The position numbers and the translations under genes were made by a program. Under the pieces are notes generated by a model. It saw only the letters and a list, made by a program, of their open reading frames with translations, made no database searches and was not told the DNA's origin. A DNA stretch of 32,831 nucleotides from an uncultured Verrucomicrobia subdivision 3 bacterium. Its GTDB lineage: Bacteria; Verrucomicrobiota; Verrucomicrobiia; Limisphaerales; UBA11358. Numbering within the stretch: the first letter of the stretch is position 1; each line of letters starts with the position of its first letter. The DNA is taken from assembly GCA_903842235.1 (NCBI GenBank), contig CAIMLG010000220.1:1-32831 (forward strand), given 5' to 3'. Below are positions 27,210-31,783 of the stretch, piece after piece.

Positions 27210-27604
27210 GGTTTTGGAAGGGTGGAGAATCGCTCCCGGCGCAAGTCGGGGGAGGAAAGTCCGAACTCCGCAGGGCGCGATGCTGCGTAACTCAAGCTTT
27301 TGGGTTTGAGATACACGCAGGAGCGGCGTTTCAAGACGCCGCGACGGAAAGTGCCACAGAAAACAGACAGCCGTTGGCGCAAGCCGGCGGTGATGGTGAA
27401 AAGGTGCGGTAAGAGCGCACCGCGTGCAGCGCAAGCAACACGGCATGGCAAACCCCATCGGGTGCAAGGCCAAATAGGAAACCGAGGAGTGGCCCGCTCC
27501 GCGTTTCGCGAAAGCGAACAGGTTTCGGGTATCGGTCGCTCAGACAAATGATTCTCTCCGCCGCAAGGCGCAGACAGAATTCGGCTTATAGCCCTTCCAA
27601 AACC
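27210..27604 (+). ncRNA. rnpB: RNase P RNA, bacterial class A
   Basis: GGGGGAGGAAAGTCCGAACTCC, AAGTGCCACAGAAAACAGAC, GGTAAGAGCGCACCGCG, GGCAAACCCCATCGGGTGCAAGGCC, ACAGAATTCGGCTTATAG; P1 GGTTTTGGAAGGG (27210-27222) pairs exactly with CCCTTCCAAAACC (27592-27604). Confidence 0.97.
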
Positions 27605-29087: not shown

Positions 29088-29189
29088 ACTGTTGGCCCAT
29101 GAGACGCGGCGACCGCCGGTTTGGCAACGAATTTTTGCGCGCGACCGGCAAATTGACTCCAAGCGACCGATTTGGTAGATTCCAATCAT

Positions 29190-29350
29190 TGCAGCCTAAG
29201 TCCGGCTTCCTTCCTGAGGCCGGATGCGGGGGAACCAGTTCCCGGAGTGATCCGGGGTGGGGCGCAGAAGGCTCGGTAACGAGTCGTCAGGCCACTTTCA
29301 AGGCCCAGCCCGTCAGCTAACCTCGTCGGCCATTGGAAGGGCGATCCGCT
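29190..29350 (+). promoter_or_regulatory. Probable cyclic di-AMP riboswitch (ydaO-yuaA family)
   Basis: Conserved ydaO-type blocks in order: GCCTAAGTCC, GGGGGAACCAGTT, GGGGTGGGGCGCAGAAGG, and AGCCCGTCAGCTAACCTCGTCGGCC; followed by perfect hairpin TTCCCGC-TTGG-GCGGGAA (29353-29370). Confidence 0.82.
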
Positions 29351-29447
29351 AGTTCCCGCTTGGGCGGGAAACCATGGTCACCCCACTGAAACCGGCTGCC
29401 TCGTCGCCCCAAAAATGGCGCCGCTGGCCGTCACAATGAAATGGGTT

Positions 29448-29924
29448 ATGAAAACAAATCAAGCGACCATCCACTATCAACATAGCCAGCGGGGCACGGT
29501 GATTCTCGTCACCCTGCTCGGCGCGGCGGCGGTGCTCGTGGGCCTGGGATTGGCCAAAGCCGAACTGAAAGTTCTTTGGGTCAGCCTGCCGGTTCTGCTG
29601 GGGTGCAGCTGGCTGTTCCATTCGCTGACGATCGAAATTACGGATTGCGAACTGCGCTGGCGTTTCGGGCCGGGACTGATCGGCAAACGGGTGCCGCTGG
29701 GCGAGATTATCGCTGCCGCGCCGGTGCGGACCGGCCCCAGCTGGGGCATCCACTGGAGTCCGGGCAAAGGCTGGCTTTACAACGTGTCGGGCTTCGATGC
29801 CGTGGCCATTACCCTGCGCAGCGGCAAACACTTGGCCATCGGCACCGATGAACCAGCCATCTTGGCCGGGGCTTTGAACCACGCCATGCAACGCTCTCCG
29901 CCGTCGGGTCTCCAGAGTTGGTAG
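29448..29924 (+). CDS. Small membrane protein: two N-terminal TM helices plus PH-like beta-rich domain, unknown function
   Basis: MKTNQATIHYQHSQRGTVILVTLLGAAAVLVGLGLAKAELKVLWVSLPVLLGCSWLFHSLTIEITDCELRWRFGPG..; immediately downstream of the riboswitch candidate. Confidence 0.75.
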   Translation: MKTNQATIHYQHSQRGTVILVTLLGAAAVLVGLGLAKAELKVLWVSLPVLLGCSWLFHSLTIEITDCELRWRFGPGLIGKRVPLGEIIAAAPVRTGPSWGIHWSPGKGWLYNVSGFDAVAITLRSGKHLAIGTDEPAILAGALNHAMQRSPPSGLQSW

Positions 29925-29942: not shown

Positions 29943-29967
29943 CCCCGCCGTTGCGGGCGGGGTTTTC
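29943..29967 (+). terminator. Rho-independent terminator CCCCGCC-gttgcg-GGCGGGG-TTTTC
   Basis: 7-bp GC stem plus T-run after 29924 stop. Confidence 0.75.
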
Positions 29968-29968
29968 G

Positions 29969-31783
29969 TCAGCTGTGAATCACCAGCTGAATGTTTTCCG
30001 GCAGGTTCTTGGCGACTTCGGTGATGACATTACCCTTCAGCAGCCGGGCGAGGTTGGTGCGGTGCGTGGAGCCCAGCATCAGCACGTCGGCGCCGATCGT
30101 GGCGGAGATGTCGAGAATGGTGGCGGCGGGATTTTCGCTCACCACATAAACGGGAATGACGGTGACGCCGATTTCCTGGCCCAGCTTGATCATGGCATAC
30201 ATGATGAGGGCCGCCTGATGATCATCCTGCCAGCGCGGGCGTTCGAGGTTGGCCAGCGGGCCGGGGAGATTCACCGCGAGCTCCTTGATGTAAAGCACGT
30301 AGAGGTTGCCCTGCCGAAACTTGGCTTCTTCGATGGCAAACCGCAGCACCGGGGTGAGGCCGCGCGCGGCCACCAGAATGGACTGGCCCGGGGTGAGGTT
30401 GGGGCGGAATTGGGCGATGTGGTCAGCGCTGACGGCGGCGGCAAATTCCTTCTTGATGATGATCGTTTCGTAGCCGGCATGTTTCATCGCCCACCAGCGC
30501 AAGGCAAACCCGACGCCGAGCACGCAAACCACAAAGAACAGGGCGGCGGGCTTGGTTTTGGCAATGGTGATGCCCACGGCAAACAGGACGAGGAACGTGC
30601 CAATCATGATGAGCCGTTCCCAAGCTTTGAGTTTTAACCGGGCGTTAAAAGCGCACGAGCCGAGGTTGACGGTGATGGCCCCAACGACGCCGATGGCATA
30701 CAGATCAGCCAAGGAATGCAGATTATCGGAAATGACCACCAGAAAAACCGGCAGCAGCGTCGCCACGGCCAGCGGTAGCCACGGCACGCCGTGGGCGTTC
30801 AGCCTGGTGAACGGCTGGGGCATTTCGCGGTCGCGGGCCAACATGTAAAGCAGGCCAATCAGGGCGGCGATGGCGGTGTTGACCGCGCTCAACAATAACA
30901 AGCCGACGACTAGTCCGATGACCACGCCGAAGACTTGCCCGAGGTGCGGGCCCAGCGCCGCCGTGCCGTAGTGTTCCCCCAGAAAACGGAGCATATCCTC
31001 ATAGCGGCTCTTGATTTGCGGCGCCATCTCCGCGGGGAGCGAGAGCATGGCCCAAGCCAGCAGGGCAGTGATGAGGACAACTTCGATGGCGACGGGCCAG
31101 ATGGCTTTGCGCGCGGTGCTGGTGACCCGTGGATTTTCGGGGGTGGCGCCCTTGTCCAGCTTCATCACGCCGGTGAGGTTGGCGATGGCCTCTACGCCGC
31201 TCAACGCCAGGATGACCCCGGCGAAGGCCACCCAGTTCACGGCAAAACTATCATGCGGACGCTCCAGATGCACAAAGGTCAGGTGCGGGGCGCTCAGGGC
31301 AACGATGGCCAGCACGATGATCACCATGGGCATGGCCAACAGGACCGCCAGGCTGCCGGAATGTTTGGGCCCGAAATAATTGATGAAACCGACGAGCAGG
31401 ATGAAACCCAGGGTGGCCGCTTTAAGATATTCGCGCGAGATCCCGAAATACGCCATGGCATCCCAGCAGCTCATGGCGGCGGTAACCATGAAGTCCGCCA
31501 ACAGGAGCAGCGAGCCGAGCACGGCCAGCACCCGGCTTTGTTCCCGGGCCGCCGAATAGACGCCTCCGCCGTCCGGGAAGTTTTTGCAGACAATGGTGTA
31601 ATTGTAGGCCACCAGTCCCGTGAGCGCGCAGACGGCCAGGATGATCGGCAACGACGAGAAGCCGGCCGCGACAAACGCGAGGCCGATGACGTAGGCTTTG
31701 CTGGTGCCCCAGTCGCCATACAGCAGCGCGGCGGCGCGTGCCCAGCCCAGATTTCGCGGGCGATGTATTCCGACGCTGTCCAT
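29969..31783 (-). CDS. APC-superfamily permease with C-terminal Usp-like domain (KimA-like)
   Basis: About 12 hydrophobic helices; CKNFPDGGGVYSAAREQ, SGVEAIANLTGVMKLDKG, MLARDREMPQPFTRLN, LADLYAIGVVGAITVN; C-terminal Usp-like ATILDISATIGADVLMLGSTHRTNLARLLKGNVITEVAKNLP. Confidence 0.85.
   Translation of the reverse strand: MDSVGIHRPRNLGWARAAALLYGDWGTSKAYVIGLAFVAAGFSSLPIILAVCALTGLVAYNYTIVCKNFPDGGGVYSAAREQSRVLAVLGSLLLLADFMVTAAMSCWDAMAYFGISREYLKAATLGFILLVGFINYFGPKHSGSLAVLLAMPMVIIVLAIVALSAPHLTFVHLERPHDSFAVNWVAFAGVILALSGVEAIANLTGVMKLDKGATPENPRVTSTARKAIWPVAIEVVLITALLAWAMLSLPAEMAPQIKSRYEDMLRFLGEHYGTAALGPHLGQVFGVVIGLVVGLLLLSAVNTAIAALIGLLYMLARDREMPQPFTRLNAHGVPWLPLAVATLLPVFLVVISDNLHSLADLYAIGVVGAITVNLGSCAFNARLKLKAWERLIMIGTFLVLFAVGITIAKTKPAALFFVVCVLGVGFALRWWAMKHAGYETIIIKKEFAAAVSADHIAQFRPNLTPGQSILVAARGLTPVLRFAIEEAKFRQGNLYVLYIKELAVNLPGPLANLERPRWQDDHQAALIMYAMIKLGQEIGVTVIPVYVVSENPAATILDISATIGADVLMLGSTHRTNLARLLKGNVITEVAKNLPENIQLVIHS

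Follow-up and report, generated by a model that had tools for sequence, protein, structure and literature searches.

A c-di-AMP riboswitch linked to a predicted PH-like membrane protein and to K+-uptake operons in Verrucomicrobiota

Introduction

The nucleotide c-di-AMP is a central K+ and osmolyte signal that has been studied mostly in Firmicutes. Riboswitches for c-di-AMP control kimA and other K+ transporters, and earlier predictions place them ahead of ktr, trk, kdp and kup genes in a set of phyla to which Verrucomicrobia belongs (PMC6488665). KimA, a K+/H+ symporter of the KUP family, is inhibited directly by c-di-AMP (PMC10284832). A c-di-AMP riboswitch acted as an OFF switch in vitro, and a pseudoknot of the aptamer has been mentioned (PMC9337991).

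Here we analyzed a stretch of 32,831 nucleotides (the window) from an uncultured bacterium that, among named relatives, is closest to a Verrucomicrobia subdivision 3 MAG (source genome 4.32 Mb, 88.65% complete). The system in the window has in common with other RF00379 riboswitches the aptamer core, the helices, the pseudoknot and, in relatives, the K+-transport gene context. It differs from them in that its lineage carries a conserved composite hairpin without a U-tract 3′ of the aptamer, and in that its immediate target is an uncharacterized, predicted PH-like membrane protein. As in the kimA (ydaO) operon of Bacillus subtilis and its KUP-family symporter, a KimA-like or Kup transporter stands under RF00379 in the relatives; unlike that operon, the relatives place a predicted two-TM PH-like gene between riboswitch and transporter, and in the window this gene is the only one under the riboswitch.

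Results and discussion

The aptamer is located between a divergent GHL10 gene on the minus strand and the PH-like gene, and the 5′ part of the locus comprises the following features.

29153-29181, plus strand: sigma-70-like promoter, TTGACT-N17-TAGATT (consensus scan, 9/12 matches)
29183-29346, plus strand: c-di-AMP (ydaO/yuaA) riboswitch aptamer, RF00379 (cmscan, full length)
29295-29301, plus strand: pseudoknot strand 1, loop CUUUCAA, complementary to 29333-29339
29333-29339, plus strand: pseudoknot strand 2, UUGGAAG, complementary to 29295-29301

Judged by its sequence, the RNA is a standard c-di-AMP riboswitch, an ordinary member of the known class that would be expected to bind the ligand. 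The cmscan search of the window gave a score of 52.8 bits (E 1e-9), above the RF00379 gathering score of 38 bits, with an alignment covering model positions 1-134 of 134; the 4.32 Mb genome was matched by RF00379 only once, at this locus. The first-pass annotation, made from the letters alone, had recognized ydaO-yuaA-like blocks in a leader at 29190-29350 and had named this covariance search as the check. Both the riboswitch and all three blocks were recovered, the latter in order (GGGGGAACC at 29228-29236, GGGGTG at 29254-29259 and CCGTCAGCTAACCTCG at 29310-29325), but the 5′ edge had to be moved, as the aptamer begins a few bases upstream of 29190. Aligned to the model consensus, the window contains the conserved core blocks GGGGAACCA, GGGGYG and CCCGUCAGCUAACCUCG and keeps the RF00379 helices. 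The promoter, one found in a scan of the region against 0.1 expected, ends directly before the aptamer, and the start falls at about the first aptamer bases. Further upstream, an RNase P RNA of class A was matched at 27214-27604 on the plus strand (230 bits).

A pseudoknot outside the pairs of Rfam RF00379 connects the loop after the GGCC-like stem with the 3′ tail; it corresponds to the one that PMC9337991 mentions. Across 90 Verrucomicrobiota aptamers the two strands vary together, as judged by eye from the printed aptamer sequences rather than counted by a tool: CUUUCAA/UUGGAAG in the window corresponds to AUUUAAUG/CAUUAAA in L015, CUUCUAA/UUAGAAG in L006 and GUGGUG/CACCGC in L021.

Directly 3′ of the pseudoknot, the leader contains a putative expression platform.

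29339-29383, plus strand: composite hairpin, with outer stem GGGCGAUC (29339-29346) / GGUCACCC (29376-29383) (pairing, individual folds)
29353-29370, plus strand: inner hairpin UUCCCGC-UUGG-GCGGGAA (covariation together with the outer stem)
29376-29384, plus strand: GGUCACCCC arm, with alternative complementarity to GGGGUGG of the aptamer core at 29254-29260 (duplex energy, fold)

The leaders of the genus share the arrangement GGGCGAUC-CUCU-(variable GC-rich hairpin)-CCAC-GGUCACCC directly after the pseudoknot strand, independent of which gene follows, and the composite hairpin reappears in many of their single-sequence folds. The TTCCCGC/GCGGGAA hairpin without a T-run that had been noticed earlier is indeed present (arms 29353-29359 and 29364-29370, no U-run after it), but it is not peculiar to this locus; it forms the core of the conserved composite hairpin. 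The position of the inner hairpin differs by one base between two leader groups; pairing was therefore counted on sub-alignments of the 32 leaders, 22 for the outer stem and 13 for the outer stem with the inner hairpin. The outer stem is conserved more than it covaries: in the 22 leaders, 96.8% of cells were paired compared to 37-64% with slid partners, one pair was changed on both sides, and 15/500 pair shuffles reached the observed value, only moderately above chance because most of its pairs never vary. With the inner hairpin included (13 leaders), 98.2% of cells were paired and the covariation score was reached by 0/500 shuffles. Left free to choose the best partner for the outer stem, a search yielded 245/296 pairs vs. 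225 ± 4 in shuffles; this is a weak test, since other 8-mers may be chosen.

We considered a standard intrinsic terminator as the platform and rejected it, as no U-run follows the composite hairpin, whereas the terminator at the end of the PH-like gene does carry a T-run. In this respect the platform also differs from that of the Dehalobacter c-di-AMP riboswitch, which is an intrinsic terminator (PMC9337991). The missing U-run concerns the platform only, because it is the aptamer that defines the riboswitch class. The GGUCACCCC arm was predicted to form a more stable duplex with the aptamer core (-11.9 kcal/mol) than with its hairpin partner (-9.0 kcal/mol), and in the unconstrained fold of the window leader the core pairs with this arm. 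The anti-aptamer pairing is less clear in relatives, and SPFH leaders favor the hairpin. A ligand-controlled choice between the hairpin and the anti-aptamer pairing is plausible from these predicted energies and folds.

The aptamer and platform are followed by the target gene, its terminator and a convergent gene.

29448-29924, plus strand: predicted two-TM PH-like membrane protein, 158 aa, riboswitch target (homologs co-located with the riboswitch, model, fold search)
29943-29966 (core 29948-29960), plus strand: intrinsic terminator after the PH-like gene, GC-rich stem then TTTT (scan and sequence)
29969-31783, minus strand: convergent APC transporter with a C-terminal USP domain, putative distant KimA relative, outside riboswitch control (Pfam AA_permease_2, Usp)

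The start at ATG 29448 is supported by homologs whose starts align there, and the protein is intact, with 63% identity to its nearest homolog and no frame damage. The earlier description of a protein without recognized family holds for Pfam and NCBIfam, neither of which has a family for it; no curated bPH model matched, and a PDB sequence search returned no match. Its description as a two-TM PH-like protein agrees with a low-confidence AF2 model (two-sequence input, pLDDT 61.6), weak Foldseek matches and sub-threshold Pfam matches, which tentatively suggest two membrane helices plus a PH-like domain. The model comprises a short strand, helices at 14-36 and 40-58, further strands and a C-terminal helix. 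Its best PDB matches in Foldseek were PH-domain proteins (GRK2, E 7.6e-4; Btk PH domain, E 0.015), and the only listed match spanning the whole protein was 8kei_D of the NOX2-p22phox-EROS entry (TM 0.47, E 0.036), a chain taken as EROS from its length. Predicted TM helices plus a PH-like domain are likewise characteristic of bacterial PH-domain membrane proteins (Pfam bPH_4 and bPH_10/YqeB-like); distant homologs gave sub-threshold matches to these models, whereas the window protein matched none of them. EROS is a membrane-protein chaperone with two TM helices inserted in a PH domain, and both EROS/CYBC1, the chaperone of gp91phox, and PIGH have this architecture (PMC9767466), which the window protein would share if its model is right. 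EROS/CYBC1 has no sequence relation to the window protein, and the low-confidence model is a lead for mechanism, not for membership.

We then turn to gene order in relatives. The PH-like protein was found in 7/49 genus genomes, and is dispensable in the genus because so few genomes carry it. All seven copies lie on the same strand as an RF00379 match and no more than about 350 bases 3′ of it, forming a riboswitch operon, and in 5/7 loci the next gene encodes a KimA-like K+ transporter, whose N-terminal 161 residues match KimA in the PDB (E 1.7e-16). A profile search identified the protein in 24/313 order genomes. In a second family (f139), the order riboswitch-PH-kup occurs with above-threshold riboswitches in L130, L132, L133 and L135, with Kup confirmed by Pfam at L130; the same order is probable in L131, where the riboswitch was recognized from core motifs only. 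A KimA-like or kup gene thus directly follows the PH-like gene in 10 loci of two families, and the recurrence of riboswitch and PH-like gene that the first-pass annotation had asked for as synteny is observed in both. In G513 (L129), the order is riboswitch-SPFH-PH. In a maximum-likelihood tree, a 99/99 branch set 13 linked copies, together with the unlinked L134, apart from the rest; the riboswitch-linked copies form one clade, with 13 of its 14 members linked. Copies outside this clade had no above-threshold riboswitch within the fetched flanks, and distant homologs occur without the riboswitch.

The window itself is peculiar in that the riboswitch has the PH-like gene as its sole target. 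The only PDB match of the convergent APC-USP protein was KimA (E 7.5e-11), it shares 24% identity with the riboswitch-linked KimA of relatives, and its N-terminal YGDWGTSKAY is, by eye, close to YGDIGTSPLY of Kup. Searches of this incomplete genome detected neither a KimA ortholog nor Kup or TrkH, so that, the convergent KimA-like gene aside, no partner transporter stands out.

Given what was observed here, namely the aptamer with its pseudoknot, a conserved platform and the linkage of the genes, we consider it fairly probable that the riboswitch responds to c-di-AMP as an OFF switch and controls an accessory protein of K+ uptake. A short mRNA would start with this riboswitch as its 5′ leader and encode the predicted two-TM PH-like membrane protein. 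At high K+, and hence high c-di-AMP, the aptamer would fold around the ligand and free the GGUCACCCC arm, allowing the downstream composite hairpin to close and expression to be lowered; at low c-di-AMP, the arm could base-pair with the core of the aptamer, which would permit expression of the gene. Candidates for the output step are attenuation without a U-tract, Rho-dependent termination or translational control. The protein itself would assist transporters of the KUP family (KimA/Kup), either in an accessory role or as a partner in their assembly, and the target is plausibly a new c-di-AMP-regulated component of K+ homeostasis. Of the envelope or osmotic role proposed earlier, the osmotic/K+ part is favored over the envelope, because in relatives the protein belongs to riboswitch K+-uptake operons (KimA-like, Kup). 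By analogy with EROS, we tentatively suggest that the protein may even be devoted to KUP-family transporters, as a c-di-AMP-regulated factor for their assembly or as a regulatory subunit; if true, it would be a kind of K+-transport component for which no bacterial example has yet been described. The main reading also draws on the diadenylate cyclase of the genome and on the surveyed downstream genes; weighing against it are the platform without a U-tract at a locus whose gene ends in a T-run terminator, the lone gene in the window, its presence in so few genus genomes, the distant homologs without a riboswitch and the uneven anti-aptamer pairing among relatives.

The PH-like protein could also be a general envelope or osmotic-stress membrane protein of the c-di-AMP regulon, with the transporters merely co-regulated. 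Such a role, which we regard as rather doubtful, would fit the lone gene behind the riboswitch in the window, the riboswitches preceding non-transporter genes (SPFH/Band 7, PII), the position after an SPFH gene in G513 and the distant homologs without K+ context, but the KimA-like or kup gene immediately after it in 10 loci of two families speaks against it. It is unlikely that the gene is a passenger of a riboswitch that evolved for K+ transporters and persists here as a relic after transporter loss: the absence of a detected KimA ortholog in the genome and the sporadic distribution of the gene point that way, yet aptamer, pseudoknot and platform all remain whole in the window, and the conserved protein shows no frame damage. 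It is highly improbable that the RNA only resembles the class in structure and fails to sense c-di-AMP, because although 52.8 bits is moderate beside the phylum's best RF00379 score of 89.9 bits, the match is full length with invariant core blocks and pseudoknot all present, K+ genes lie downstream in relatives, and the genome encodes one diadenylate cyclase domain.

The preferred reading remains a c-di-AMP riboswitch controlling a probable K+-uptake accessory protein. To the extent that this could be checked, two things are new: a PH-like protein that recurs and a conserved platform that has no U-tract. The conserved PH-like family accompanies the riboswitch in Verrucomicrobiota K+ operons with two kinds of transporter. 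This widens the known target set of the c-di-AMP riboswitch, and the family can be tested as a candidate for an accessory part of K+ uptake that is still missing.

Finally, we surveyed the genes downstream of 90 Verrucomicrobiota riboswitches, chosen as best-scoring or from the window's genus and with a few present in duplicate. The downstream gene was recognized in 77/90 as Kup, KimA, KdpA, SPFH, PII, zinc-ribbon or PH-like, and in 13 none was recognized; the counts were 25 for Kup, 23 for KimA, 12 for SPFH, 7 for KdpA and 7 for PH-like operons, with few of the others. Riboswitch-regulated kdp has been described as seemingly restricted to Bacillales (PMC6488665); in Verrucomicrobiota, kdpA lies directly downstream of the riboswitch in L064, L067, L078, L084, L090 and L093. 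An SPFH/Band 7 protein of ~600 aa is a recurrent target (L074, L081, L082, L086, L091, L092, L010, L011, L054 and L055). A small zinc-ribbon ORF (CPECG...CADCG), with weak Pfam matches only, is the first after the riboswitch in L072, L083, L086 and L056. In L079, shortly before the end of the contig, a gene for a canonical PII nitrogen regulator (P-II) begins 262 bases after the riboswitch. Some genomes of the genus, G600 and G607 (L074-L076, L080-L081), contain two or three c-di-AMP riboswitches, each preceding a different gene (SPFH, KimA, PH-KimA).
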